A stretch of DNA of 23,343 nucleotides, taken from positions 1 through 23,343 of the IMG/VR virus record IMGVR_UViG_3300046011_003263. The stretch is one strand, 5' to 3'. Position numbers and translations under genes: made by a program. Under the pieces are notes generated by a model, which made no database searches, was not told the origin of the DNA, and saw only the letters and a list, made by a program, of their open reading frames with translations. Positions 1,491 through 23,343 of the stretch are shown piece after piece; position 1 is the first letter of the stretch, and each line of letters begins with the position of its first letter. Source of the DNA: a virus.

Positions 1491-2084
1491 ATGGACGCGA
1501 CGTCGCCCACAACCGAACTCCAAGCGGTCAACATCATGCTCTCCCTGATCGGGGAGATGGAGATCGATGACCTGAGCCTTGCCGCGTCCAACGCTGACGT
1601 CCAGATGGCCCTGTTCATCCTCCGCTCGGCCACCCGCACCGTGCAGACCAAGGGCTGGCAGTTCAACACCGAGACCGGCCGCACGCTCTACCGTGGCCCC
1701 AACTCCGAGATCGCCCTGCCGTCCAACGCGGTGCGCTGCTCGAAGCCAGAGGACCCGCAGCTGCAGCAGGAGGACGTCCGCTTTACGATCCGTGGCCAGC
1801 GCCTGTTCAACCAGACCACCAACAGCTTCGTCTGGGATGTGGATGTGGTGGCCGACCTGACGCTCCTCCTGCCGTTCGAGGAGCTGCCCGAGCCCGCCCG
1901 GAACTACATCGCGGAGAAGGCGGCCCAGCGGTTCCAAGACCGGAAGCTGGGCTCCACGACGCTCCGCTCGTTCACTGCGGATGACATGGCTGACGCCTCG
2001 GTCGCCCTCATGGACTACGAGCTGGACGATGGCGTCTACAACCTGCTGGTCCACCCCTCGACCGCTGCGATCTGGCTGCGCTGA
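1491..2084 (+). CDS. Tail tubular protein A / head-tail adaptor (T7 gp11-like)
   Basis: The 197-residue product matches T7 gp11 in length (196) and position. This is the gatekeeper ring that joins the portal to the nozzle. Visible family features are an N-terminal helix starting with ELQAVNIMLSLIGE, the GWQFNTE motif, and the helix ELPEPARNYIAEKAAQRFQDR followed by a short C-terminal region with DYELDDGVYNLL. An AAGGAGA ribosome site lies near 1478-1484. Its TGA stop overlaps the next ATG (TGATG), so it is translationally coupled to the nozzle gene. Confidence 0.93.
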   Translation: MDATSPTTELQAVNIMLSLIGEMEIDDLSLAASNADVQMALFILRSATRTVQTKGWQFNTETGRTLYRGPNSEIALPSNAVRCSKPEDPQLQQEDVRFTIRGQRLFNQTTNSFVWDVDVVADLTLLLPFEELPEPARNYIAEKAAQRFQDRKLGSTTLRSFTADDMADASVALMDYELDDGVYNLLVHPSTAAIWLR

Positions 2085-3124
2085 TGTCCCTCGTCAGTCA
2101 GACCATCAGCAACCTCGCCAACGGCATCAGCCAACAGGCCCCGACGGCGCGCTCCCCCTCACAGGCCGAGCTGCAGGAGAACTGTCAGTCCACCGTGGTT
2201 GATGGCCTCCGCCGCCGCCCACCCACGCACCACATCGCGAAGGTCTCCACGGCCACCACCTACGGGGACGCCTTCGTCCACACCATCGACCGGGACTCGG
2301 CCGAGAAGTACGCCGCTGTGTTCCTCGACGGGCTGGTCAAAGTGTTCGACCTTCAGACCGGCGAAGAGCAGACCGTGAACCACCCTGACGGCTGGGACTA
2401 CCTAGACGCTGCTGACCCCAGGACGACCATCCGCGCCACCACTGCGGCCGACTTCACGTTCGTCATCAACCGCGCCGTCGAGGTGGGGATGCTCGCGGAG
2501 CTGTCTCCCGTCCCCGCACCCAAGGCGATGGTCTTCTTCCGCTCGGCCACCTACCGCGAGAAGTTCGTCCTCAAGGTCAACTCCAATGAGTGGTCGCTGC
2601 AGATGCCCCTCCTGGGCGGCAGCAATAACAACAGCCAGTGGCTCTCGACCAACATCACCGCGAAGGGCTTCCACGAGCTGCTCACCACCGGAAGCGTGAC
2701 CGCGCTGGCCTCGACGGACACCACCCCGTTCTCCTCGACCGCAACCATCACCTCCCTCGGCTTCACCGCCACGCTGGAGGGCTCGATCATCACCATCACC
2801 CGCTCCGACGGTGCTGACTTCACGATCTCCGGGGTGGACGGCAACGGCAACGAACACATGAAGGTCATCAAGGGCACCGTCCAACGGTTCTCCGACCTCC
2901 CGCGCATCGGCATCGACGGCTTCTCTCTGAAGGTGGTCGGTGACCCCGACAACAACGCCACGGACTACTGGGTTCAGTACCGCACTGAAGAGCCCGATCC
3001 CGTCGCCCTCTCGCTGCCAGCTGGTGGTGACACTGGCGAGGTTGGCGGCTCTGGCGGTGGTGCTGGCGGCATCACCCCGTTCGATCCGTACGAGCGCGAT
3101 CCCTACTTCGCCTTCATCCCATAG
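2084..3124 (+). CDS. Tail tubular protein B, N-terminal part (T7 gp12-like, split gene)
   Basis: This 346-residue product aligns with the first third of T7 gp12 (794 residues), the nozzle that ends the short tail. It starts SLVSQTISNLANGISQQAP, as the family does, and carries the RRRPPTHH motif, HTIDRDSAEKYAAVF and the DYWVQYRTEE strand near residue 300. In ordinary homologues the chain then runs straight into a segment like ETVAPGV...MPHALV. Here it instead goes into a glycine-rich linker (residues about 312-330) and ends at TAG (3122-3124) after FAFIP. The next ORF continues the family sequence in the same reading frame. This is therefore a split gene 12, either two subunits or one chain made by readthrough of TAG. 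Confidence 0.88.
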   Translation: MSLVSQTISNLANGISQQAPTARSPSQAELQENCQSTVVDGLRRRPPTHHIAKVSTATTYGDAFVHTIDRDSAEKYAAVFLDGLVKVFDLQTGEEQTVNHPDGWDYLDAADPRTTIRATTAADFTFVINRAVEVGMLAELSPVPAPKAMVFFRSATYREKFVLKVNSNEWSLQMPLLGGSNNNSQWLSTNITAKGFHELLTTGSVTALASTDTTPFSSTATITSLGFTATLEGSIITITRSDGADFTISGVDGNGNEHMKVIKGTVQRFSDLPRIGIDGFSLKVVGDPDNNATDYWVQYRTEEPDPVALSLPAGGDTGEVGGSGGGAGGITPFDPYERDPYFAFIP

Positions 3125-3136
3125 GAACCCACCTGC

Positions 3137-5995
3137 ATGACGACCACCTCATCGACAGGCGGATGGTTCGAGACTGTCGCCCCCGGCGTGCAGATCAAGC
3201 TCGACCCGGCCACCATGCCCCACGCCCTCGTCTCCGAAGGTGGCGGGGTGTTCACCTTCAAGCAGCTCGACTGGGACCCGCGCGGGGCAGGGGACGACAA
3301 CAGCTGTCCAGCACCCTCGTTCGTCGGGCGCAAGCTCAACGACATCTTCTTCGCCCGCAACCGGCTGGGCCTCCTGTCCGGCGAGAACGTCATCCTCTCG
3401 CGGGCGGGGGGTAGCTACTATGCGTTCTTCCGCGAGAAGGCCTCCCAGATACTCGACACCGACCAGATCGACGTTGCCTCGACGGACAAGGAGATCAGCC
3501 TCCTGACTGCGGCCCTGCCGTTCAGCGAGGACATCCTGCTCTTCTCGTCCAAGGCGCAGTTCCGCCTGACGTCCGGCTCCGAGCTGATGACGTCCAAGAC
3601 CGTCGAGCTGCGCCCCCTCTCGCGCTTCCCCAACTTCACTGGCGTCTCGCCCGTGGTGTCTGGTGGGGCCATCTACTACGCCTCCGACAGCGGCAAGAAC
3701 TCGCTGCTGATGGAGATGCTGGTGGACCAAGGAGGGGCCGTTTCCGGTGACCTGACCGCCCACTGCCCGCGCTTCCTTCCGCCCAACCTGCAGAAGATCG
3801 CGTGGTGTAGCGCGGAGAACGTCGGGGTCACCCTGAGCCGCGCCGAGCCGAACGCCGTGTACGTCTACGGGTACTACTCGCAGGGCCAGGAGCGCCTCAT
3901 GGCGAGCTGGTCGAAGTGGACTTGGGACGAAGGGGATCGCATCCTCGATGTCAGCGTCACCGGGTCCGACCTCGTGCTGGTCATTCAGCGGGCCGACGGG
4001 CTCCACATCGAGGCCATGTCCCTCTCGCCCGCGCACAACGACATCGGGTCGGACCACACGATCCACCTCGACCGCCGCGTGACCGAGGACCAGTGCGTCG
4101 TGGACTACGAGGAAGCCACCGGCCTCACCGTGGTCACCCTGCCGTACAGCAACGCAGCGCCCGGCCTTCAGGTCTGGCAGCGCCTCTCGGCAGGATCGAT
4201 CGACATCCCCCGGCAGCTGCACATGGTCCGCCGTGGGGCCAACCAGCTGGTCCTGACTGGCAACCAAGAGGCCACCCCGTTCTTCGTCGGGTTCGCCAAC
4301 GAGGCTGTCTACGAGTTCAGCCAGCAGTACCTCCGCCAACAGGACACAGTCCGCACCGATGGACGCCTCCAGCTCCGCAGCTTCGCGATCAACCACGGGC
4401 GCACCGGAGGCTACATCGCCGAGGTGTCCAACCCTTCGCGGGCTTCGACGGCCACGGTGAACCTCCAGAACTTCGCCTCTGACGCATGGAGCGCCCTGAC
4501 GTCGTACGATGGGACGCCCATTGAAGCAGAGGGGGTGGGCCTGACGTTCGCGGACCCTGAGGACTACGTGAACAGCTACACCGGGTCCATCTCCGGGTCC
4601 GTGGCTGGCGTGGTCCCAGATGGCCGGTACTTCCTCCGCCTCTCCGCTCCTGGGGCCACCGACACGGACGTCCTCATTGCCTCGGACTTGACGTTCAGCT
4701 TCGCGACCAGCCCGTCTGGGGTGAAGTCCGTCAGCCTGATCCGCGCCAGAGACGGCGTCCCGGTCCATCGGCAGGTGTTCGGCCTCGGCGGCCCCACCGG
4801 GCTGTTCCTCGTGGCACCCGGAGACCGCTTCGTGATTGAGCCCGGCGTCTTCATGGCGCGTGAGGTTCCCCCCGGCGACGGCGGGCTGGTGATCCGCGAA
4901 GGCACGGCCTCGATCCGCTCTCAGGCCAAGGCCATCCTGGCTGCCTGTGCCCGCGACGAGGAAGAGCAAGCCGTCGGCTGGACACGCGCCCTCCTGCAGA
5001 CTCAGCGCCCCGACGGTGTGTTCCCTGAAGAGGTGAACCCGGAGTCTGGCGAAGAGGTGGACGAGATCGGCTACGACCTTGAGACGCAGATGTGGGTCGT
5101 CCTGGCCCTCGCCCGCGTGATGGCTGTCTACCCTGCCAACCGCTACGCAGAGGACATCACCGGCCAGCTCAACGACCTCGTCGCGTTCCTCGAAGGGGAC
5201 CACCTCCAGACCATCATGGCGCTGCCCACCACGGGCCTCATCGTGTTCGATGGAGAGGCCTCCACGCGGGTCAACCTCCTGGCCTACTTCGCGTTCAAGG
5301 CGGCCGGGGAACTCACCCGCGCAGCCGACTTGGCCGACGACATCATGGCCAAGCTGTGGAACCCCGCAGAGGGGCGCTTCGTGGCTGGCGCTGATGAGGA
5401 CGCACCGTTCGACCTCGACCAGCTCCTCGTTGAGTCCCTCGCCCCGGCGTTCCTCGTGGACATCGGCAAGGTGGAGTTGGCCAAGCTGGCGGAGCTGTGG
5501 CAGCAGTACTACGTGTCCGGCTCCGGCCGTGCGCTCGGTCTCGCTGAGACGGCCATCGGGCTGGAAGTCCAAGGAGACTGGGACGCCACACCCACCGCGC
5601 TGGACGCAGGGACCACGCTGGAGGCCATCATCTCAAAGCTGGCCCTCGGTGACCGGGCATCGGCTCGCGCCGCTCTGGCCGCACTGGAGCCCGCCACAGG
5701 GCTATCCCCGGATGCCCTCGCCATGATCTGCATCGTGAGCGAACCTCAGGGCGTCTTCTCGCTGGGCAGCCCAACGCCGCTGTGGACCGAAGGGTCCGTG
5801 GTGGATGACCGCAGCCAGACCTTCACCTACCGATTCCTCGCGCCCGGCCCATCGTCGGACGGCAGGTTCTCCTTCCCGGTGAACATGAACAGCGAGGACG
5901 CCGTGGTCCGCCTCAAGTCCCTCGGTGCGCTCCCCTTCGGAGCCCTGTCCGCAGAGATCGAAGGGTTCTTCACGGCACGGGCGTCGAAGGTCTGA
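3137..5995 (+). CDS. Tail tubular protein B, C-terminal part, with large inserted domain
   Basis: The 952-residue product continues the nozzle family. ETVAPGV, TMPHALV, PSFVGRKLNDIFFARNRLGLLSGENVILSR and the following propeller-like repeats match T7 gp12 up to about residue 445. The canonical C-terminus (GRFSFPVNMNSED...AEIEGFF) returns only at about 908-945. Between them lie about 460 extra residues: a beta-rich part (about 447-580), then an all-alpha part (about 590-868). The latter has repeated amphipathic helices such as GWTRALLQTQRPDGVFPEE and YDLETQMWVVLALARVMAVYP, reminiscent of (alpha/alpha)6-toroid glycosidases or lyases. The start ATG at 3137 has AGGA overlapping the previous stop codon (TAGGA). 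Surface polysaccharide binding or degradation is an inference; no catalytic residues are assigned. Confidence 0.88.
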   Translation: MTTTSSTGGWFETVAPGVQIKLDPATMPHALVSEGGGVFTFKQLDWDPRGAGDDNSCPAPSFVGRKLNDIFFARNRLGLLSGENVILSRAGGSYYAFFREKASQILDTDQIDVASTDKEISLLTAALPFSEDILLFSSKAQFRLTSGSELMTSKTVELRPLSRFPNFTGVSPVVSGGAIYYASDSGKNSLLMEMLVDQGGAVSGDLTAHCPRFLPPNLQKIAWCSAENVGVTLSRAEPNAVYVYGYYSQGQERLMASWSKWTWDEGDRILDVSVTGSDLVLVIQRADGLHIEAMSLSPAHNDIGSDHTIHLDRRVTEDQCVVDYEEATGLTVVTLPYSNAAPGLQVWQRLSAGSIDIPRQLHMVRRGANQLVLTGNQEATPFFVGFANEAVYEFSQQYLRQQDTVRTDGRLQLRSFAINHGRTGGYIAEVSNPSRASTATVNLQNFASDAWSALTSYDGTPIEAEGVGLTFADPEDYVNSYTGSISGSVAGVVPDGRYFLRLSAPGATDTDVLIASDLTFSFATSPSGVKSVSLIRARDGVPVHRQVFGLGGPTGLFLVAPGDRFVIEPGVFMAREVPPGDGGLVIREGTASIRSQAKAILAACARDEEEQAVGWTRALLQTQRPDGVFPEEVNPESGEEVDEIGYDLETQMWVVLALARVMAVYPANRYAEDITGQLNDLVAFLEGDHLQTIMALPTTGLIVFDGEASTRVNLLAYFAFKAAGELTRAADLADDIMAKLWNPAEGRFVAGADEDAPFDLDQLLVESLAPAFLVDIGKVELAKLAELWQQYYVSGSGRALGLAETAIGLEVQGDWDATPTALDAGTTLEAIISKLALGDRASARAALAALEPATGLSPDALAMICIVSEPQGVFSLGSPTPLWTEGSVVDDRSQTFTYRFLAPGPSSDGRFSFPVNMNSEDAVVRLKSLGALPFGALSAEIEGFFTARASKV

Positions 5996-13569: not shown

Positions 13570-15294
13570 ATGAGCGACACCACGTCGCGCCAAGTGCAGC
13601 GTGCTGATGAGCGCGCCCAGAAGAAGCAGTACCGCCTCTTCAAGAACTTCCTCGCGCGGACTTGGAGACACCTCCGGCTGCCCGATCCGACGCCTGTCCA
13701 GTACGACATGGCGGACTACCTCCAGTTCGGCCCCAAGCGGTGCGTGATCGAGGCCTTCCGGGGCGTCGGCAAGAGCTGGATCACGGCGGCCTTCGTCTGC
13801 TGGCTCCTCCTGCTGGACCCCCAGAAGAAGATCATGATCGTCTCGGCCTCCAAGGAGCGGTCGGACGCCTTCTCGATCTTCGTCAAGCGCCTGATCGCCG
13901 ACATGCCCGAGCTGCAGCACCTGCGGCCGGACAAGAAGAAGGGCGACCGGGACTCAAACCTGATCTTCGACGTCGCCCCGGCCACCCCCGACCAGTCTCC
14001 CTCGGTGAAGTCGGTGGGGATCACGGGGCAGCTCACCGGCTCCCGCGCGCATGTCATCATCGCGGACGACATCGAGGTCCCGAAGAACAGCTTCACGGCC
14101 CCCATGCGCGAGAAGCTGGCCGAGCTGATCAAGGAGTTCGACGCGGTCATCAAGCCCGCCGAGGACTGCCCCCCTGACGAGCCCTCGCGGATCATCTTCC
14201 TTGGGACCCCCCAGACCGAGATGTCGATCTACAACCGCCTCCCTCCGCGTGGCTACGAGATCAGGGTGTGGCCAGCCCGCATCCCCGTGGACGCCAAGAA
14301 GTACAGCGGAACCCTCGCCCCCTTCGTACAGGCGATGATCGACTTCGGTGCCAAGCCCGGCCACCCGGTGGACGTCAAGCGGTTCACCGACGGGGACCTC
14401 GCCGAGCGCGAGCTGTCCTACGGCCGCTCAGGGTTCGCCCTGCAGTTCATGCTGGACACCAGCCTCTCAGACGCCGAACGCTACCCCCTCAAGCTCGAAG
14501 ACCTGATGGTCATGGGCTTGGACATGGAGCGCGGCCCTGTCGCCCTGGCCCACGGCAAGGACCCCCGCAAGAATCTCCTCGAAGACCTGAGCCCTCCGGG
14601 GTTCGCCGGGGACTACTTCTGGGGACCCATGTGGGTGGACGCAGAGTTCTCCCCCTACGAGGGCTCTGTGCTGGCCGTAGACCCCTCAGGGAGGGGCTTG
14701 GATGAGACCGGGTATGCCGTGGTCAAGCAGCTCCACGGACGCCTCTTCCTGATGGCCTCTGGGGGCTTGAAGGGCGGTGCCACCCCGGAGAACCTCCGCA
14801 AGCTCGCCGACATGGCCAAGACCCACAAGGTCAACGCCGTGGTCATCGAGAAGAACTTCGGGGACGGCATGTACGGTGCCCTCCTCAAGCCGATCCTCTC
14901 GCAGGTGTGGCCATGCTCCCTTGAGGAGTGCCTCTCCACCGGCCAGAAGGAGACCCGCATCCTCTCCACCCTGGAGCCCATCGTCCAACAGCACAGGCTC
15001 GTGGTGGACCGGAAGGTGATCGAAGCCGACCTAGCCTCCGACGATCCCTCCTACAGCCTCTTCTACCAGTTCACCCGCCTCACGAGGGACCGGGGTGCCC
15101 TGGCCCATGAAGACCGACTGGAAGCCCTGCAGATGGGGGTCCAGTACTGGCTCAACCTCATCGGCGTTGACACCGACAAGGTCGCTGAAAGCCACCGTGA
15201 GGAACTCCTCATGGCTGACCTCTTAGCGTTCGAGGACATGGCTGGTCTCTCTGTGACTGGAGGAGCCTCAAGACCACGTTGGGTGGACGCATAG
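13570..15294 (+). CDS. terL: Terminase large subunit, packaging ATPase and nuclease (T7 gp19-like)
   Basis: The 574-residue product matches T7 gp19 (586). The ATPase part has a Walker A loop FRGVGKSW (residues 63-70, K68) and a Walker B strand AHVIIADD (160-167), followed by the coupling region IIFLGTPQTE. The nuclease part has the RNase H-like first strand VLAVDPSGRGLDETGYAV, with D371 as the probable metal ligand, and later VIEKNFGDGMYGALL. It drives DNA into the procapsid and cuts the concatemer. A CGGAG ribosome site precedes ATG 13570. It is the last clear late gene; the likely genome-end region begins just after it. Confidence 0.96.
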   Translation: MSDTTSRQVQRADERAQKKQYRLFKNFLARTWRHLRLPDPTPVQYDMADYLQFGPKRCVIEAFRGVGKSWITAAFVCWLLLLDPQKKIMIVSASKERSDAFSIFVKRLIADMPELQHLRPDKKKGDRDSNLIFDVAPATPDQSPSVKSVGITGQLTGSRAHVIIADDIEVPKNSFTAPMREKLAELIKEFDAVIKPAEDCPPDEPSRIIFLGTPQTEMSIYNRLPPRGYEIRVWPARIPVDAKKYSGTLAPFVQAMIDFGAKPGHPVDVKRFTDGDLAERELSYGRSGFALQFMLDTSLSDAERYPLKLEDLMVMGLDMERGPVALAHGKDPRKNLLEDLSPPGFAGDYFWGPMWVDAEFSPYEGSVLAVDPSGRGLDETGYAVVKQLHGRLFLMASGGLKGGATPENLRKLADMAKTHKVNAVVIEKNFGDGMYGALLKPILSQVWPCSLEECLSTGQKETRILSTLEPIVQQHRLVVDRKVIEADLASDDPSYSLFYQFTRLTRDRGALAHEDRLEALQMGVQYWLNLIGVDTDKVAESHREELLMADLLAFEDMAGLSVTGGASRPRWVDA

Positions 15295-16244: not shown

Positions 16245-16410
16245 CACCGATCTGCGCTTTCTCTGGACACACCGGAAGACGGAGCGGCGCCAACGGCGGC
16301 CGGACTTCCCAAGGTCTTTGACATTGTGAGCAAGCAAGGTCCCGCCAGTCGGTCCCGCCATGAAACGCCCTAGGGCGCGAGCGGGGGAGCCGCGTAGGGG
16401 CCTCGCCCGA

Positions 16411-16467
16411 AAGGGTCCCTAGGGTTCGCCCCTAGGCTGACCATGCCGGTTGACCGGCGAAACCCTT
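16411..16467 (+). ncRNA. Hammerhead-like RNA (type III layout, deviant core)
   Basis: The RNA can fold into the hammerhead three-way junction. Stem III is AAGGGU (16411-16416) with ACCCUU (16462-16467). C16417 would be the cleavage base of GUC. Stem I is CCUAGGG (16418-16424) with CCCUAGG (16430-16436) around UUCGC. CUGA (16437-16440) follows, then stem II GCCGG with CCGGC around UUGA (16445-16458), then GAAA (16459-16462). The one fault is CCAU in place of the invariant NGA between CUGA and stem II, which lacks the catalytic G8. It may be inactive or a variant. It lies just before the first early gene. Confidence 0.5.
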
Positions 16468-16486: not shown

Positions 16487-16759
16487 ATGGGCATGAGACT
16501 AAAGACTGACACCGCCGCTCGCCCTCCCTTGCTGGTCACCCTTGGGGACTATGAGCGCAACACACTAGACCGCGCCAAGGCTGCAGGACGCCCCGGCTAT
16601 TGGGACGCGGTCACCGCAATGCTGGATACGGCGGCGGATGTCATTGACGAGGCTGGGAGCGTTGACGAGGCGCGCCACATCCTTGGCATCATCGCCGCGG
16701 ACATCCTCGAAACCGTCCGGCAAGCGCGGGTCTACGTTCGCAAGGTTGCCACCACCTAA
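16487..16759 (+). CDS. Small early protein of unknown function
   Basis: I start at ATG 16487, which has GGAG seven bases upstream; an in-frame TTG at 16466 would add seven residues but falls inside the hammerhead-like stem. The 90-residue product (MGMRLKTDTAARPPLLVTL...VRKVATT) is mostly helical and acidic in the middle (AADVIDEAGSVDEARHILGIIAADILETV), with basic ends. No membrane segment, Cys motif or known domain is seen. It is the first gene of the early block, just downstream of the presumed control region and upstream of hammerhead 1. Such leading small genes in T7-like phages often act on the host, but nothing here shows that. Confidence 0.75.
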   Translation: MGMRLKTDTAARPPLLVTLGDYERNTLDRAKAAGRPGYWDAVTAMLDTAADVIDEAGSVDEARHILGIIAADILETVRQARVYVRKVATT

Positions 16760-16760
16760 A

Positions 16761-16817
16761 GACGTCTGAAGAGGCCCTTGAGAAAGGCCGAAACCGCCAC
16801 CCCTAGGCGGTCGCGTT
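16761..16817 (+). ncRNA. Type I hammerhead ribozyme 1
   Basis: The core CUGAAGA is at 16766-16772. Stem II is GGCC (16773-16776) with GGCC (16786-16789). GAAA is at 16790-16793. Stem III is A16793-U16811 plus CCGCC (16794-16798) with GGCGG (16806-16810). The cleavage triplet GUC ends at 16812, so self-cleavage is predicted between 16812 and 16813. Stem I is GACGU (16761-16765) with GCGUU (16813-16817), including G-U pairs. All invariant hammerhead core bases are present. It starts two bases after the stop codon of one gene and would leave a leader of about 51 bases on the next. Confidence 0.9.
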
Positions 16818-16863
16818 GTCTCTAGACGATTGCACCCACACGAACGCAAAGGAAGGTCCCGCC

Positions 16864-17604
16864 ATGAACGGCGCAATTCTCTATGAAGGCCCGTCAGCCA
16901 TCGACGGCCAACCCATCGTCGTGATCGCCACAGGCCTTAGCGGTCGGTCGCGTAACGAAAAGACCGGCGACATGGTCCAAACGTGGGTCCTGCGGTCTGA
17001 CATCGCCCCTCATGATGCCGTGAAGGGTGGACAGGACGAAAGTGTCTGCGGTCAATGCCCCCATCGCGGGACCATGGTTGACGGGAAGAATGTTGGCCGG
17101 TCCTGCTATGTGACGGTCTTTCAAGCGCCTCTCAGCGTGTACAAGGCTTATCACAGGGGCATCTACCCGCGCCTTAATGCCTTCGAGGCCGCAGCCGCTC
17201 TGGCCGGTCGGATGGTCCGCCTAGGGGCCTATGGAGACCCCGCCGCCGCACCCTTCGCCATGTGGAAGATGGCCACCAGCCGCGCCAAGGGTTGGACCGG
17301 GTACACCCATCAATGGCGCACGGCTGACCCCCGCTTTGCCGCTCTGTGCATGGCCAGTGCCGACACGGCGGAAGAGGGTGAAGAGGCCCGCGCTGCAGGT
17401 TGGCGGACGTTCCGGGTCCGCACGGCTTCCGGCGCTGTTGCCCCCCGTGAGTTCATCTGTCCCGCGTCGGAAGAGGCCGGGTATAAGACCGACTGCGCCA
17501 CGTGCAAGGCTTGCATGGGGACCGACGCGAAGGCGAAGGCCTCTCCGGTGATCATCGCCCATGGGGCCACCGCGCGGGCCTTTGAACGCCGCCAAGCCGC
17601 CTAG
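16864..17604 (+). CDS. Cysteine-rich conserved phage protein (DUF7227-like)
   Basis: ATG 16864 has a strong AAGGAAGG site; an in-frame TTG at 16816 lies inside hammerhead 1 and is not used. The 246-residue product starts AILYEGPSAIDGQPIVVIATGL and has CGQCPHR (C62, C65), CYV (C81), C162, C199 and a C-x2-C-x2-C near the end (C211, C214, C217). It also has the blocks RMVRLGAYGDPAA (residues 117-129) and GYTHQWR (146-152), and ends VIIAHG...ERR. I know this layout from many phage and plasmid proteins of unknown function; DUF7227 is my best memory of the name. The eight Cys suggest zinc or iron-sulfur binding. It is the largest early gene and lies between hammerheads 1 and 2. Confidence 0.85.
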   Translation: MNGAILYEGPSAIDGQPIVVIATGLSGRSRNEKTGDMVQTWVLRSDIAPHDAVKGGQDESVCGQCPHRGTMVDGKNVGRSCYVTVFQAPLSVYKAYHRGIYPRLNAFEAAAALAGRMVRLGAYGDPAAAPFAMWKMATSRAKGWTGYTHQWRTADPRFAALCMASADTAEEGEEARAAGWRTFRVRTASGAVAPREFICPASEEAGYKTDCATCKACMGTDAKAKASPVIIAHGATARAFERRQAA

Positions 17605-17633
17605 GCCCTAGCGATCACGCAAACGCACACACC

Positions 17634-17685
17634 CCGCCTGACGAGGCCCGTGGCAGGGCCGAAACCGTCGCTGAGACGGTCGCGG
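17634..17685 (+). ncRNA. Type I hammerhead ribozyme 2
   Basis: The core CUGACGA is at 17638-17644. Stem II is GGCCC (17645-17649) with GGGCC (17656-17660) around GUGGCA. GAAA is at 17661-17664. Stem III is A17664-U17680 plus CCGUC (17665-17669) with GACGG (17675-17679) around GCUGA. The triplet GUC ends at 17681, giving predicted cleavage 17681/17682. Stem I is CCGC (17634-17637) with GCGG (17682-17685). Stems I and III differ from copies 1 and 3 in sequence but keep pairing. It lies 29 bases after the Cys-rich gene and would leave a 38-base leader on the next gene. Confidence 0.93.
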
Positions 17686-17719
17686 AGCCAAACCCCCCGC
17701 ACACCGAAAGAGCCACCCA

Positions 17720-17881
17720 ATGTACGCCCTTACCACCCGCACCGGTCGCGTTGTTCTGGAAGGCTACCAAAGCCACGCCGACGCCGTCCGACTGGCCCGC
17801 GAGATGGGTCTCCAAGTCCGCAAGATGATGGACCCCATCTGCGCCCCGCGTTCGCTCTCCAGCGTCTTCCGGGGGGTCTGA
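17720..17881 (+). CDS. 53-residue early protein of unknown function
   Basis: ATG 17720 opens a frame to TGA 17879-17881. The product, MYALTTRTGRVVLEGYQSHA...SSVFRGV, begins with a short beta-hairpin-like part followed by a helix (ADAVRLAREMGLQVRKMM); the look is of a small alpha/beta protein. GAAAGAG at 17706-17712 is a fair ribosome site. The third-position GC preference is like that of its neighbours, which supports coding. It stands directly after hammerhead 2 and three bases before the next gene. No known family is recognised. Confidence 0.7.
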   Translation: MYALTTRTGRVVLEGYQSHADAVRLAREMGLQVRKMMDPICAPRSLSSVFRGV

Positions 17882-17884
17882 TCG

Positions 17885-18061
17885 ATGACCGCCACCCGCC
17901 GCCGCACCATCCGCCAGCCGTCCGCTGAGAGTGTCTACGAGGCCCGCTATCACGCCAGCGCCACCTATCGCCGCGCCCGTCGTCGGGAGGCCGTGAGGCT
18001 CTGGCTCTGGGTCTATGTCGGGTGCTTCGCCCTGTCCATCCCGCTCGCCCTGTTCGCCTAG
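17885..18061 (+). CDS. 58-residue Arg-rich single-pass membrane protein
   Basis: ATG 17885 to TAG 18059-18061. The first 38 residues are strongly basic (RRRTIRQ, then YRRARRREAVR), followed by one C-terminal hydrophobic stretch LWLWVYVGCFALSIPLALFA at about residues 39-58. This gives a small inner-membrane protein with its basic N-terminus in the cytoplasm. The function is unknown; roles such as superinfection exclusion or modulating lysis would be guesses. Its TAG stop codon is the first conserved part of structured element A. Confidence 0.68.
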   Translation: MTATRRRTIRQPSAESVYEARYHASATYRRARRREAVRLWLWVYVGCFALSIPLALFA

Positions 18062-18121
18062 CCCCCATCCCAGCCCGCCCAGGGCGACACCTAGGGCGGG
18101 CTGCAGTGGTCGCTTGGACCT
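18059..18121 (+). ncRNA. Repeated structured RNA element, copy A
   Basis: It begins with TAGCCCCCATCC (containing the upstream stop codon). A perfect 9-bp hairpin follows: AGCCCGCCC (18072-18080) with GGGCGGGCT (18094-18102). After one variable base comes CAGTGGTCGCTTGGACCT (18104-18121), identical to copy B at 19496-19513. GCGAC in the hairpin loop (18084-18088) can pair with GTCGC in the tail (18109-18113), suggesting a pseudoknot. No T-tract and no hammerhead core are present. It lies 38 bases before the next start codon. Confidence 0.75.
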
Positions 18122-18159
18122 AGCCCGCTGGCCTCGCCAGCTACACGAAAGATGATCCG

Positions 18160-18357
18160 ATGTTCGAAGACATGCCCGCCACGGTGCAGGTGGCCACGGC
18201 CCTCCGCGCTGCCTACTTCGTGAACCCGTCCGACGCCCTGTGGTCCGCCCGCATGGACGCCATCTCCGCCATGACGCGGGCAGAGGACGGCTACTACGTC
18301 TCCATGCGGTGGCTGCTGTCGGACCTCGCCGCGTTCGCCTACTGGGCCGCCCTCTGA
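18160..18357 (+). CDS. 65-residue early protein of unknown function
   Basis: ATG 18160 to TGA 18355-18357. The product MFEDMPATVQVATALRAAYF...SDLAAFAYWAAL is short, helical, slightly acidic and aromatic-rich at the end (MRWLLSDLAAFAYWAAL). That C-terminal stretch is moderately hydrophobic but carries an Asp, so it is more likely an amphipathic helix than a membrane span. GAAAGATG at 18148-18155 may serve as ribosome site. Its stop codon overlaps the next ATG (TGATG), indicating coupling. No family is recognised. Confidence 0.7.
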   Translation: MFEDMPATVQVATALRAAYFVNPSDALWSARMDAISAMTRAEDGYYVSMRWLLSDLAAFAYWAAL

Positions 18358-18566
18358 TGGCCCTCGCCGACAGGATCACGGCGCTCATCCAAGGCGCGCT
18401 CATCCACCCCGACCCTCACGAGGCCGCCAAGCTCCTCCGCAAGCGCGCCCGGCTGATCGCCAAGGGGGACCGCTCCAAGTGGCCCTCAGGGGTCACCGTG
18501 GCCGACTGGCTGGACGCCCAGAGCCGACTGCTGGCTGCGGCCAACGCCCTCTCCCCTGCCACCTGA
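18357..18566 (+). CDS. 69-residue basic early protein of unknown function
   Basis: ATG 18357 shares a base with the previous stop codon. The product MALADRITALIQGALIHPDPHEAAKLLRKRARLIAKGDRSKWPSG (first part) has two helices, a strongly basic middle (KLLRKRARLIAKGDRSKW) and a C-terminal helix with VADWLDAQSRLLAAANAL. The basic helix suggests nucleic acid or membrane surface contact, which is only inference. It is translated in the same short unit as its two neighbours, downstream of element A and upstream of hammerhead 3. Confidence 0.7.
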   Translation: MALADRITALIQGALIHPDPHEAAKLLRKRARLIAKGDRSKWPSGVTVADWLDAQSRLLAAANALSPAT

Positions 18567-18581
18567 AAGGAAGCCTGACCC

Positions 18582-18731
18582 ATGCACCCCATCACCATCG
18601 ACCTGACCGGCCCCGACTGGGAGCCTGAGGCATCCATCAAGTGGTACGCCCAGTGCGGCGGCACGTTCGCCTTCGGTCCTGACCCGCACGCCGCGCTCGC
18701 TGCGCTGCTGCTGCTCCTCCCTGCCACCTGA
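18582..18731 (+). CDS. 49-residue early protein; its stop codon lies in hammerhead 3
   Basis: ATG 18582 (AAAGGAAG upstream at 18566-18573) to TGA 18729-18731. The product starts MHPITIDLTGPDWEPEASIKW and ends AALAALLLLLPAT. The first half looks soluble and acidic, the last 12 residues are hydrophobic, too short for a usual membrane span. The final codons form the 5' strand of stem I of hammerhead 3, and the TGA stop is bases 2-4 of its catalytic CUGACGA. Translation to the end would therefore disrupt the ribozyme until the ribosome leaves. No family is recognised. Confidence 0.65.
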   Translation: MHPITIDLTGPDWEPEASIKWYAQCGGTFAFGPDPHAALAALLLLLPAT

Positions 18732-18779
18732 CGAGGCCCCCTGAGACAGGGCCGAAACCCGCTGCGGCGGGTCGTGGCG
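18722..18779 (+). ncRNA. Type I hammerhead ribozyme 3
   Basis: The core CUGACGA is at 18728-18734. Stem II is GGCCC (18735-18739) with GGGCC (18749-18753) around CCUGAGACA, a loop like that of copy 1 (CUUGAGAAA). GAAA is at 18754-18757. Stem III is A18757-U18772 plus CCCGC (18758-18762) with GCGGG (18767-18771) around UGCG. GUC ends at 18773, giving predicted cleavage 18773/18774. Stem I is UGCCAC (18722-18727) with GUGGCG (18774-18779), six pairs including one U-G. It overlaps the end of the upstream gene and would leave a 42-base leader on the next. Confidence 0.95.
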
Positions 18780-18815
18780 TCTCATCGCCCATCACCAACG
18801 ACAAGGAAGCACCCA

Positions 18816-19214
18816 ATGCGCACCTCCTACCCCGCCCCCAGCGTCACCGAGAACGTGGCCCTCGCCGCCATGTGCCTCATGGAAGAGGCCTCAGAGCGCA
18901 CCCTGCTGGCCAACGAGGACCAGTGGCCCGGCATCAACAGGTGGCGCGAGACCCAAGGGTCCTACGCCCTGCGGTCTGAGTTGCTCGCCGACGCCGCGCT
19001 GGTCGAGGCCGCGTGGGACGTCCTGAACCCGAGCGATGGCACCGTGTCCATCACCGAGGACCTCGGCCTGTACGCCTTCGACTTCGACTTCTGCCCGCGC
19101 CTCCTGACGATCCTCTTTGAGGGCGACGAAGAGGTGACCTGTCCGCTGCTCGCCGCCCAGATCGTGGTCGGCTCCGAGTTGGTCGCGCAGTTCGCCAAGG
19201 CGGTGGCCCGATGA
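18816..19214 (+). CDS. Acidic early protein of unknown function
   Basis: ATG 18816 with AAGGAAG (18803-18809) is chosen; an in-frame GTG at 18774 lies inside hammerhead 3. The 132-residue product is clearly acidic, by eye more than twice as many Asp/Glu as Arg/Lys, with acidic clusters MEEASE, FDFDF and EGDEEV. It has a hydrophobic C-terminal helix region (LLAAQIVVGSELVAQFAKAV). T7 makes an acidic DNA-mimic antirestriction protein (Ocr, 117 residues) from its early region, so a mimic role is thinkable, but no sequence similarity is visible. It is coupled to the next gene by an ATGA overlap. Confidence 0.78.
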   Translation: MRTSYPAPSVTENVALAAMCLMEEASERTLLANEDQWPGINRWRETQGSYALRSELLADAALVEAAWDVLNPSDGTVSITEDLGLYAFDFDFCPRLLTILFEGDEEVTCPLLAAQIVVGSELVAQFAKAVAR

Positions 19215-20072: not shown

Positions 20073-20157
20073 GCTGTCACAGCGCCGGGCGCAATCCTGC
20101 GGACGCGGTACTCAAGGGACGGTCAATGTCAGCTCACCAGATCAAGGCTTCAGAGGC

Positions 20158-20607
20158 ATGCCCACCGACCTTTACATCCCGCAAATCGCCGGAGTGTCCG
20201 CCCATGTCGAGTTCGCCGATCCACGCGCCCCCGACGAGCCGTTCGTCTGGTGTCTTCGCAGAGCAGCGTCTTTCCAATTCCGCATCGGGAGCGTATCAGG
20301 GGTCATCTCCTTCGGCGCGACCCGCAGCGGGGGATGGCGCAAGGGGAGTACGGACGATGGCGAAGGGCAGGGCAGCGCCCAAGGGGACCATCGGTCTCTA
20401 CCGTGTGATGGACGAGCTGTTCCGCACGGACAGCAACATGCCGGTGGCCCAGGCGGTGATCTTCCTGTTCATTGCGGCGCGGTCGGCGGACCCTGCGTCT
20501 GCGCCAACGATGACGGACATTGCGGTTGCCCTCTCCACGGATGTGAGCCGCGTGAGCCGCAACGTGAAGCTCCTCTGCGAGGCCGGTCTGGTCGAGACGC
20601 AGCGTGA
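20158..20607 (+). CDS. Doubtful ORF ahead of and overlapping the regulator gene
   Basis: From ATG 20158 this frame reads MPTDLYIPQIAGVSAHVEFA and on through PFVWCLRRAASFQFRIGSVSGVISFG; over about 60 codons it has the high third-position GC of the real genes here, whereas the frame that leads into the regulator does not in the same stretch. It then runs on, without coding character, over the first 250 bases of the regulator gene to TGA 20605-20607. It may be a short real gene whose end overlaps the regulator, or the 5' part of a longer regulator broken by a frameshift near 20340. I see no strong ribosome site. Confidence 0.3.
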   Translation: MPTDLYIPQIAGVSAHVEFADPRAPDEPFVWCLRRAASFQFRIGSVSGVISFGATRSGGWRKGSTDDGEGQGSAQGDHRSLPCDGRAVPHGQQHAGGPGGDLPVHCGAVGGPCVCANDDGHCGCPLHGCEPREPQREAPLRGRSGRDAA

Positions 20608-20692
20608 CCCGCTGGACCCCCGCTCCAAGCTGTCCTTCGTGACGGCGCAGGGCCACGCCTTCCTCACCCGCCTCACCACCCTGATCGACTAG
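20357..20692 (+). CDS. MarR-like winged-helix transcription regulator
   Basis: The frame is open from 20126, but I start at ATG 20357, nine bases after GGGGAG; the upstream part is Ser/Pro-rich and lacks coding character. The 111-residue product has a helical N-terminus (TIGLYRVMDELFRTDSNMPVAQAVIFLFIAA), a winged helix-turn-helix (TMTDIAVALSTDVSRVSRNVKLLCEAGLVE, residues about 53-82) and a wing (TQRDPLDPRSKLSFVTAQG), then a closing helix, as in MarR proteins. Next to the integrase, it is the best candidate for the lysogeny repressor or switch protein, probably acting on the TTGCG dyads (inference). The integrase follows after 14 bases, so the two are probably co-transcribed. Confidence 0.82.
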   Translation: MAKGRAAPKGTIGLYRVMDELFRTDSNMPVAQAVIFLFIAARSADPASAPTMTDIAVALSTDVSRVSRNVKLLCEAGLVETQRDPLDPRSKLSFVTAQGHAFLTRLTTLID

Positions 20693-20706: not shown

Positions 20707-21795
20707 ATGACTATCCGCCAACGCGGCAAGTCCTTCATGGTAGATGTGAAGGTGCTGGCCGCCCGCAACCCCTCGTCTGAAGACGTTCGCGTTCGCGTGA
20801 CTGCCAAAACGCGGGACGATGCTATCCGCCTAGAGTCCCTGATCCGCGCCGAGGTCATGAGGACTGGCCGCTGGTCCCCGCAAGCTGACGACGCCATGTC
20901 AGCCGCCCGGTCTACACCTGCCCGCAAGGAGGGGACCCTGAAGGCCGCGCTCAAGTGGGCGTGGGACCACCCGACCAAGGGCTGGCACCTCGCGAAGGAA
21001 GCGTCGGCCGAGGGGCAGAGGCGCAACGCCCAGATGGTCATCGACTTCCTCGGCGAGGACACCCTGTGCTGTGACATCGGGCGGGAGGACTTCGAGCGCG
21101 CGGCCACCCACTTCAAGGCCAAGGGCAACAGCAACGACACCGTCACCCGGAAGCTCCAAGCCTTCTCGCGGGTGCTGTGGTTCGCCGAGCGCAAGGGATG
21201 GATCAAGGCCCGCCCCAGCTGGGACCGCGCACCGAGCGCCCCGCACCGCAGCTTCATCTTCTCCCCCGACCTGGAGGCCAAGGTGCTGGACTTCTTCGAG
21301 ACCGTGGCGTGGGACCCGGCGATGGCCGACCTGTTCCGCCTCGGGGTGGACACCGGCTGCCGCCTCGGCGAACTGCTGCACCTCAAGGCGGGCGATGTGA
21401 ACCTGATCGACGGGTTCATCACGGCGCGCGGCGAGAGCGGCTCCACGAAGAACGGCGAGGTCCGCGAGGTGGCCCTGAACAAGCGCGCCAAGGCCCGGCT
21501 GGCAGTCCTGCTGGTAGGCAAGGAGCGGGGCGACCGCCTGTTCCCCGGATGGAGGGCCGAGAGGGTCAGCCGCCGGATGGTCCAGTGCCGCAACGCGCTG
21601 GGCTACGAGGGGGAGAAGGGCTTCACGTTCCACTCCACCCGCCACACCTGCGGCACCCGCATGGCCGGGGCAGGGGTCAACACCCAGCTCCTCCTTGACC
21701 AGCTCGGGCACCGCTCGCAGGTGATGGCCAGGGTCTACGTCAACGCCGCCCCCACCGCCCGCCGAGACGCGATCCTCAAGGCGATGGGGGAATAA
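20707..21795 (+). CDS. int: Tyrosine-type integrase
   Basis: The 362-residue product is a phage integrase. An N-terminal arm-binding-like part (MTIRQRGKSFMVDVKV) is followed by a SAM-like core-binding domain (about 75-170) and a catalytic domain with all expected residues: R219 in TGCRLGELLHL, K248 in the beta hairpin STKNGEV, H309 and R312 in HSTRH, H335 in LGHRS and nucleophile Y344 in ARVYVN. AGGAGA lies about ten bases before ATG 20707. It cuts and joins attP with a host attB site; the adjacent tRNA-Leu gene is the probable att site. The place upstream of the phage RNA polymerase matches other integrase-bearing T7-like phages (cyanophage P-SSP7, pelagiphages). Confidence 0.97.
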   Translation: MTIRQRGKSFMVDVKVLAARNPSSEDVRVRVTAKTRDDAIRLESLIRAEVMRTGRWSPQADDAMSAARSTPARKEGTLKAALKWAWDHPTKGWHLAKEASAEGQRRNAQMVIDFLGEDTLCCDIGREDFERAATHFKAKGNSNDTVTRKLQAFSRVLWFAERKGWIKARPSWDRAPSAPHRSFIFSPDLEAKVLDFFETVAWDPAMADLFRLGVDTGCRLGELLHLKAGDVNLIDGFITARGESGSTKNGEVREVALNKRAKARLAVLLVGKERGDRLFPGWRAERVSRRMVQCRNALGYEGEKGFTFHSTRHTCGTRMAGAGVNTQLLLDQLGHRSQVMARVYVNAAPTARRDAILKAMGE

Positions 21796-21882: not shown

Positions 21883-21967
21883 TGGTACCCCCTGCTGGAC
21901 TTGAACCAGCACGCCCGAGGACCCGGCATTTTAAGTGCCGTGCGTCTACCAGTTCCGCCAAGGGGGC
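21883..21967 (-). tRNA. tRNA-Leu(UAA), complete, with encoded CCA; probable attP
   Basis: On the minus strand the 85 bases fold as a full class II tRNA. Acceptor GCCCCCT pairs with AGGGGGT (one G-U). The D stem is GCG with CGC around GAACTGGTAGA. The anticodon stem is CGGCA with TGCCG, loop CTTAAAA (anticodon TAA at 21931-21933). A long variable arm follows, then T stem GCTGG with CCAGC around TTCAAGT, discriminator A and genomic CCA. Next to an integrase this is the classic tRNA attachment site. The whole gene, not just a 3' part, is present, so it could also serve as a working tRNA. Confidence 0.93.
21924..21940. other. Candidate attP core (anticodon stem-loop of tRNA-Leu)
   Basis: CGGCA-TTTTAAG-TGCCG is a perfect 5-bp inverted repeat around a 7-bp spacer, the usual shape of a tyrosine integrase crossover site in tRNA anticodon loops. 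Related AT sequences, CTTTAAGTCAGACTT at 21832 and ACTTAAAATCAGACT at 22074, lie on each side at about 90-140 bp and could be arm sites. The true crossover cannot be fixed without the host junctions. Confidence 0.5.
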
Positions 21968-21992: not shown

Positions 21993-22217
21993 TGTGCCCC
22001 GGCAATGTGTCCCCTGTGCCCTCGGGTCACGCGCAATCCCTTACAGCACAACGATGTGCCCCAATTTCCGCAGACTTAAAATCAGACTGTTGCGTTCGCG
22101 CAATCGGGACTGACGCACCTCTAGGCCCGCTGCTCTAAGCGGCCAACCTTTGCGAACACGCGAGCATCCATGTGCCCCGGCCGCCTGTGCCCCGGAGGCT
22201 GTGACCCCGTGTGCCCC
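21993..22217. repeat. TGTGCCCC boxes, five exact and three near copies
   Basis: Exact copies start at 21993, 22055, 22171, 22186 and 22210; variants are TGTGTCCCC at 22006, TGTGCCCTC at 22015 and TGTGACCCC at 22200. All are in the same orientation and end just before the polymerase gene. The meaning is unknown; a protein-binding array or slippage product are both possible. Confidence 0.65.
22090..22106. promoter_or_regulatory. TTGCG-type dyad operator upstream of RNA polymerase
   Basis: TTGCGTTCGCGCAATCG holds the dyad TTGCG-TTCG-CGCAA and matches 16228-16244 at 15 of 17 positions. It lies about 140 bases before the polymerase start codon. A second partial copy of its right half, CGCGCAATC, is at 22030. 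A repressor bound here could keep the phage polymerase silent in a lysogen (inference). Confidence 0.6.
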
Positions 22218-22244
22218 CTGACCCCACCATCCGAAGAGAGACGC

Positions 22245-23343
22245 ATGACCGAACCCCACCTGCTCGCCGACATCGAAGTCCTCGCCACCGAGATCACCGA
22301 CCCCCGTGTCGCCCGCCAGTTCGAGCTGGAGACGGAGATGATCGAGGACGGCGCGCACCGCTACTGGGACCGGGTCGCGAAGGCCCGTCCGGGCTTCGAC
22401 GAGAACGGCCACAAGCGGGAAGGGGAGGAGAGCCGCACGCCCGCCGCCCAGTGCCTCCTGCGCCTGAGCATCGGGCCGGTCACCGAGGGCGTCATCGAGT
22501 TCCTCGAAGATGCCGCCGGGGGGAAGGCGGGTCGCCGCCACATCGCCGTGAAGCACCTCAAGCTGATCGAGCCCGAGGCCGCCGCCTTCCTCGCCATGAA
22601 GCGGGTGATGGACGGCTTCTCTCTCGGCCTGTCGATGGCTTCGATGAACATCCGCATCGGCCGCACCATCGAGGACGAGATCAAGCTGCGCCAGTGGAAC
22701 GACCAACGCCCGGCCCTGCTTGAAGCCATCCGCTCGCGGTTCGTCACCAAGAACTTCTCGTTCCACCGCCGGGTCCTCAAGGCCCTCGCTCGCCGCTACG
22801 ATGTGGACCTTGGCGAGCCGTGGTCCGACAACGAGGCGCTTCAGGTGGGCTCCGCGCTGGTCACCGTCGTGATCCAGAAGACCGGCCTGTTCGAGGTCAT
22901 CAACGAGGCTGGCCGTCTGGTCATCAAGCCGACCGAGCGCGCCCAGCAGTGGGTCCGCGACAAGGACGCCCAGGCCCAGTTCCTGTACCCCACCTACATG
23001 CCCACCGTGGTGCCTCCCAAGCCGTGGACCTCGCCGGTCGGCGGCGGCTACTACTTCGGGCTGGCCAACAAGCTGCGCCTCGTGAAGTCCCGCAGCCGTG
23101 GCTACCAGTCCGAGCTGAAGGAGTGGGACATGCCCGACGTGTACCGCGCAGTGAACGCGATGCAGGACACGGCGTGGCAGGTGAACACCTCCGTGCTGGA
23201 CCTCATGTCCGAGGCTGTCCGCTCCGGGTCCGCCCTCGCTGGCCTCCCCGAGACCCACCAAGAGCCCGTGCCCCTCGCCCCAGCTGGCATCCCGCTGGAG
23301 AAGGAGAAGCGCACCGCCGCCCAGCAGGAGCAGCTGGTCCAGC
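22245..23343 (+). CDS. Phage-type single-subunit RNA polymerase (T7 gp1-like), N-terminal part
   Basis: The frame from ATG 22245 (GAAGAGAG upstream) stays open to the right edge, giving 366 residues of a protein that should be about 800-900 long. It follows T7 RNA polymerase: an N-terminal helical domain with LARQFELE-like ARQFELETEMIEDGAHRYW, the block GRTIEDEIKLRQW, ALQVGSALVTVVIQKTGLFEV, and the diagnostic VVPPKPWTSPVGGGYYF near residues 255-271, then VYRAVNAMQDTAWQVN. It transcribes the middle and late genes from phage promoters. The catalytic palm and fingers lie beyond the window. Upstream TTGCG dyad and TGTGCCCC boxes may control it. Confidence 0.97.
   Translation, partial: MTEPHLLADIEVLATEITDPRVARQFELETEMIEDGAHRYWDRVAKARPGFDENGHKREGEESRTPAAQCLLRLSIGPVTEGVIEFLEDAAGGKAGRRHIAVKHLKLIEPEAAAFLAMKRVMDGFSLGLSMASMNIRIGRTIEDEIKLRQWNDQRPALLEAIRSRFVTKNFSFHRRVLKALARRYDVDLGEPWSDNEALQVGSALVTVVIQKTGLFEVINEAGRLVIKPTERAQQWVRDKDAQAQFLYPTYMPTVVPPKPWTSPVGGGYYFGLANKLRLVKSRSRGYQSELKEWDMPDVYRAVNAMQDTAWQVNTSVLDLMSEAVRSGSALAGLPETHQEPVPLAPAGIPLEKEKRTAAQQEQLVQ

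Follow-up and report, generated by a model that had tools for sequence, protein, structure and literature searches.

Early-Region Hammerheads in a Temperate T7-Like Phage

Three elements in the early region of a temperate T7-like phage were identified which, judging from their sequence, are genuine type I hammerhead ribozymes and probably fold and cut the early polycistronic RNA (probability of roughly 0.75). The phage is represented by a 23.3 kb fragment, IMG/VR record IMGVR_UViG_3300046011_003263, and the whole stretch of 23,343 nucleotides (nt) that was analyzed is called the window here. The three copies lie on the plus strand at 16,761–16,817 (copy 1, core CUGAAGA), 17,634–17,685 (copy 2, core CUGACGA) and 18,722–18,779 (copy 3, core CUGACGA), and their predicted cuts fall at 16,812/16,813, 17,681/17,682 and 18,773/18,774, respectively. 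The core CUGANGA, the GAAA, the A15.1–U16.1 pair and C17 of a type I hammerhead are present in all of them, and the helices follow the order I (open), II and III with covariation. Stem II has 4–5 pairs, stem III has 6 pairs including A15.1–U16.1, and stem I has 4–6 pairs.

An initial annotation of this DNA had placed hammerheads at the same positions, with the core in exact order, the A15.1–U16.1 pair and predicted new ends at 16,813, 17,682 and 18,774, and had described them as a series and not a lone copy. All of these points were reproduced. A strict motif search found three matches in the window, all on the plus strand, and zero in 60 dinucleotide shuffles scanned on both strands. A relaxed scanner gave the three copies scores of 38, 41 and 46, while 2.36 Mb of shuffled sequence yielded a single match at a score of at least 24. 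Additionally, a covariance model (R2) was trained on 51 type I hammerheads taken from viral contigs other than the window. It scored copies 1, 2 and 3 at 45.0, 58.2 and 56.8 bits (E values of 3.7e-13, 1.2e-17 and 3.6e-17), the next-best place in the window having an E value of 0.05, and this independent result bears out the type I topology and the compensatory changes noted previously. In the helices of the R2 training alignment, changes on both sides of a pair numbered 181 versus 48.5 after shuffling, a count that is tilted towards structure because the members had been picked for having stems; 94% of the cells pair, versus 26–43% with slid partners. When pattern matches were picked on the core and stem II alone, nearly all of them held the two remaining stems.

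Predicted Pseudoknots Between Loop II and the 3' Flank

A feature that the initial annotation had missed is the complementarity, in each copy, between loop II and the strand that immediately follows stem I on its 3' side. On the plus strand, GAGA (16,780–16,783) faces UCUC (16,819–16,822) in copy 1 and UGGC (17,651–17,654) faces GCCA (17,687–17,690) in copy 2, both with 4 base pairs, and UGAGAC (18,742–18,747) faces GUCUCA (18,779–18,784) in copy 3 with 6 base pairs. The letters vary from copy to copy and the pairing stays, so that a tertiary contact between stems I and II is predicted in all three, in the form of complementary strands. Among viral type I copies, at least four pairs between loop II and the flank were found in 34 of 136, against a mean of 11 and a maximum of 20 when the flanks were swapped in 200 shuffles. 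The same type of pseudoknot was shown to matter for fast cleavage by Perreault et al. (2011; PMC3088659). Minimum free energy (MFE) folding was tried as a test of the type I copies and set aside as uninformative, because the pseudoknot strands mispair.

Placement of the Predicted Cuts

The predicted cuts of copies 1, 2 and 3 lie 53, 77 and 42 nt downstream of the preceding stop codon and 51, 38 and 42 nt upstream of the next AUG, respectively. The placement at gene junctions described by the initial annotation is therefore correct, whereas its statement that each copy lies between a stop codon and a ribosome site needs amending for copy 3, where the UGA stop of the open reading frame (ORF) at 18,582–18,731 is the UGA of the CUGA core itself. 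The early gene pairs 3/4 and 5/6 abut or overlap and carry no ribozyme. Junction 4/5 (about 18,062–18,162) holds a strong hairpin (−46.6 kcal/mol, z −3.3), with no hammerhead or Rfam match, which is a possible RNase III site or terminator. In the closest relative, contig L088, junctions without hammerheads also show hairpins.

Across viral type I copies, a Shine-Dalgarno sequence and a start codon within 100 nt past the cut were found in 107 of 140 (11 in the antisense control) and, in a second set obtained with different fetching patterns, in 129 of 251 (18 in the control). Cut and start were a median of about 30 nt apart in type I copies and 60–65 nt apart in type III copies.

Instead of constant punctuation, these elements could act as regulated switches, their cutting depending on whether the upstream gene is being translated or on alternative folds; a ribosome at a stop codon in or near stem I would mask the ribozyme until its departure. 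The stop in the core of copy 3 fits this idea, as do the stops that 28 viral type I copies (e.g., in contigs L078, L061 and L103), among 113 preceded by a clear ORF, have inside the CUGA core, a further cluster of upstream-gene stops 4–14 nt upstream, and a competing fold of copy 1 described below. However, open frames often end in the core by default, since UGA is built into CUGA (15% at control sites), and neither a ligand domain nor a conserved alternative pairing was found. Regulated switching is thus considered unlikely, though it keeps some weight.

Hammerheads in Related and Other Phages

The three type I hammerheads sit between the terminase and the RNA polymerase genes, which is the early-gene place of T7. 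Hammerheads were also found in the early region of further T7-like records (G001–G011, G013, G014 and G017) and of the T7-like phages RHph_I20, RHEph01, RHEph21, TRX32-1 and HTVC019P, again between terminase and RNA polymerase (e.g., in L088/G009, RHEph01, TRX32-1 and HTVC019P). The near-complete T7-like records that were searched gave no hammerhead match elsewhere in the genome. The comparison with related phages that the initial annotation had proposed therefore supports it; the terminase of L088/G009 is 73.7% identical to that of the window. LUZ100, RHph_I20, HTVC019P and the Paadamvirus members RHEph01, TRX32-1 and RHEph21 share with the window the order terminase, early genes, MarR, integrase and RNA polymerase. 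The window has three hammerheads plus a degenerate one, in contrast with the one or two of these named temperate phages other than LUZ100, which has a boxA-like site and no hammerhead. Contigs selected on a single protein, either that of gene 2 or the RNA polymerase (L124–L143), lacked the strict hammerhead in the fetched stretches, some of them holding one beyond the stretch (L133 is the L088 contig and L135 the L167 contig).

Beyond the T7-like group, hammerheads were detected at 333 loci, which fall into 214 similarity clusters; they are often arranged serially, with up to eight in a row. In mixed series, a type III element came first in 7 of 8 independent clusters of the discovery set (3.5 expected, P = 0.014, post hoc) and in 3 of 3 of the second set (1.2 expected, P = 0.056), with types I or II later, as in L009, L075, L088, L104 and L343. 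L094 and probably L160 are exceptions, and series made up entirely of type III exist. A position rule with type III first, seen in 10 of 11 independent clusters and partly post hoc, is suggestive and weak.

BoxA and a Type III Element in the Leader

The leader of the early operon carries a putative rRNA-type boxA, TCTTTGACA, as an exact motif (16,315–16,323, plus strand) within the 16-mer GTCTTTGACATTGTGA (16,315–16,330). A type III hammerhead-like element, also overlooked by the initial annotation, lies 87 nt past this 16-mer (16,412–16,466, plus strand). A type III model (R3) scored it at 31 bits (E value of 5.1e-7, and 1.5e-7 in another run), its MFE fold as RNA is the hammerhead fold, and its three stems are intact. 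The core, however, reads CUGACCAU and not CUGANGA, so that the element was not counted as a ribozyme; it is probably inactive because G8 is lost.

In L088, the same 16-mer is found at position 7,364, and an intact type III hammerhead comes 7 nt after it; a type I copy is located at a later junction. A boxA followed by a type III element was also observed in RHph_I20, RHEph01, RHEph21 and L084, and in about eleven distinct contigs after a directed scan. In HTVC019P the leader holds a type III element and no boxA. The reverse applies to LUZ100, TRX32-1, Lo5R7ANS and BB8, where a boxA-like site is not accompanied by a type III element; the site in LUZ100 (GCTCTTTAACAAT) is similar to the E. coli rrn boxA. 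Many temperate T7-like phages have a boxA where the early region begins, as do L144 (position 15,744), L145 (645), L146 (650) and L148 (526), and a literature search found nothing on boxA in temperate T7-like early regions. A general link between boxA and type III was tested and rejected: an exact boxA precedes 6 of 102 type III copies, four of them obtained through the boxA-directed scan, and the link is therefore confined to a subset of T7-like phages.

One tentative reading is that temperate T7-like phages have in common a composite in which a host rRNA-type boxA would bring the Nus antitermination factors to host RNA polymerase, a type III hammerhead directly behind it would cut the boxA leader off the mRNA, and type I hammerheads would act at the internal junctions, replacing RNase III. 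In this reading, hairpins would be left by type III cutting at the new 5' end and by type I cutting at the upstream 3' ends. It is conceivable, again with low confidence, that ribozyme topology fits the position in the operon.

Genome Context

The fragment encodes a single-subunit RNA polymerase, a T7-type terminase, a capsid protein, a nozzle protein and an integrase, as in a temperate T7-like phage, which agrees with the assignment to a T7-like early region in the initial annotation; a MarR regulator and a tRNA gene adjoining the integrase are likewise present. The features that follow lie on the plus strand unless stated otherwise. The T7-type large terminase gene (13,570–15,294) marks the late-gene end and adjoins the early region in the permuted record. 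Early gene 1 (16,487–16,759) encodes 90 amino acids with no family match, and early gene 2 (16,864–17,604) encodes a Cys-rich protein of 246 amino acids and unknown function that belongs to phrog_2554 (E value of 2.9e-86). Early genes 3–7 occupy 17,720–18,731 (ORFs 17,720–17,881, 17,885–18,061, 18,160–18,357, 18,357–18,566 and 18,582–18,731), and early gene 8 (18,816–19,214) encodes 132 amino acids, also with no family match. A distant DNA search of the early region against known phages gave matches only to gene 2 and to pieces of the integrase. Members of phrog_2554 are found near hammerheads in several contigs (L019, L054, L063 and L104), and relatives occur in Caulobacter phage S2B and in mycobacteriophages.

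Further downstream lie the gene of the MarR-family regulator (20,126–20,692; Pfam MarR_2, 1.2e-8; phrog_9665), that of a tyrosine integrase, assigned by family matches (20,707–21,795), and, on the minus strand, a tRNA gene (21,886–21,967; Rfam tRNA, 54.3 bits), which is probably tRNA-Leu (UAA) because of its long variable arm and anticodon. The surroundings of the tRNA and integrase are a probable attP region. As is probably the case in the window, a tRNA-Leu stands beside the integrase in several temperate T7-like phages; it adjoins the integrase in LUZ100 and TRX32-1 and is near it in Lo5R7ANS and YIMV22061, a common attachment-site type. The N-terminal part of the single-subunit, T7-type RNA polymerase (22,194–23,342; Pfam RPOL_N, 2.3e-18; phrog_414, 6.6e-59) closes the record, which ends within this gene. 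Two ORFs (2,084–3,124 and 3,137–5,995) that match consecutive parts of one family make up the nozzle (tail tube B) gene, so that a frameshift or a sequencing error lies around 3,124–3,137.

Discussion

Several observations weigh against the conclusion that the three type I elements are functional. A scan of the window with Rfam 15 returned zero hammerheads above threshold, an outcome that the initial annotation had named as counting against the ribozymes. With tertiary contacts left out of account, copy 1 can adopt a different fold whose stability exceeds that of the hammerhead helices by about 7 kcal/mol, and this competition may make the copy cut more slowly. The broken core of the leader type III element implies that elements in this operon can decay. 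Moreover, no hammerheads were found in T7, phiKMV, SP6 and seven other T7-like relatives that were searched, and in these ten phages the function must be dispensable or met otherwise.

The Rfam scan was dropped as the deciding test because its positive control failed: from nine viral loci with dozens of intact hammerheads, one was reported, a type II. It was this near-empty control that led to model R2, built from type I hammerheads of other phages, which finds all three copies. Annotation based on Rfam thus overlooks most phage type I hammerheads. The damaged leader core and the scores below the Rfam threshold would also suit decaying relics or chance look-alikes without activity. This explanation is highly improbable given that all three type I copies have intact cores and stems, that their pseudoknot strands covary, that the shuffles gave no match, and that intact elements stand at comparable early-region places in relatives.

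In the probable mechanism, host RNA polymerase transcribes the early operon, and each hammerhead would fold on emerging, the pseudoknot bringing stems I and II into line, and then cut 3' of C17. Stem-loops II and III and a 2',3'-cyclic phosphate would form the end of the upstream message, which keeps its stop codon, and the downstream message would begin at a 5'-OH, from which a short leader runs to the ribosome site. Hairpin and cyclic-phosphate 3' ends, together with 5'-OH ends, should hinder exonucleases as well as decay that depends on a 5'-phosphate. T7 early RNA gets comparable ends from host RNase III, for whose processing the hammerhead cuts would stand in. T7 and the window are alike in the intergenic cuts (predicted in the window) of an early polycistronic RNA with the same gene order and, for type I, in a predicted hairpin at the 3' end of the upstream message. 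The chemistry differs, since the ends left by RNase III in T7 are 5'-phosphate and 3'-OH, whereas a cut made by the RNA itself would give 5'-OH and 2',3'-cyclic phosphate. Self-cleavage would be expected in the phage of the window, and by analogy with T7 it may be equivalent to RNase III processing and may affect stability and translation.

The initial annotation had regarded a hammerhead series serving as operon punctuation in this phage group as outside standard knowledge. That the idea is unknown is not supported, since hammerhead clusters in prophages, with transcript processing as their proposed role and with cleavage demonstrated, were already described by Perreault et al. (2011; PMC3088659). 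Prophage arrays of a comparable kind were shown there to cleave in vitro, and the Agrobacterium set also in E. coli, whereas cleavage of the window copies is predicted. The window fits such a cluster, having at least two sense hammerheads that flank genes in one phage region, and both share several close hammerheads flanking genes or blocks, the proposed role and the pseudoknot type. The passages of that study drawn on here neither place the clusters in T7-like early operons nor mention a boxA/type III leader, both of which are found in the window. The triple set of Agrobacterium tumefaciens lies near tail, ardA, marR and integrase genes (PMC3088659), and the window set is likewise near marR and integrase. 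The T7-like phage Pasto has the order ardA, helix-turn-helix regulator and integrase, and by analogy the Agrobacterium set seems to lie in an early region of the type seen in the window.

Serial hammerheads also produce matching 5'-OH and 2',3'-cyclic phosphate ends, and the excised RNA pieces could in principle be circularized by an RtcB-type ligase, in the manner of retrozymes. A putative RtcB RNA ligase gene does occur in a relative, the Mesorhizobium phage Lo5R7ANS (L149, 9,397–10,000), but this temperate T7-like phage has no detected hammerhead, and no RtcB gene was seen in the fragment. The copies are, furthermore, too diverged for a single mobile unit, and circular or spliced products were sought and none found by Perreault et al. 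(PMC3088659). Circularization is accordingly very unlikely.

The recurrence of hammerheads in T7-like early operons was not found reported in a literature search with little subscription coverage. Together with the leader that combines boxA and type III and with the weak rule on position, this recurrence is new as far as the literature shows. Isolated close relatives exist (RHEph01, TRX32-1, RHph_I20 and HTVC019P) in which the predicted 5'-OH ends are exact to the base, and relatives free of hammerheads, such as LUZ100, are natural controls. The T7-like early operon is the best-understood case of phage mRNA processing, and the link to it therefore makes the idea of punctuation directly testable and bears on the purpose of phage hammerheads, a question since 2011.

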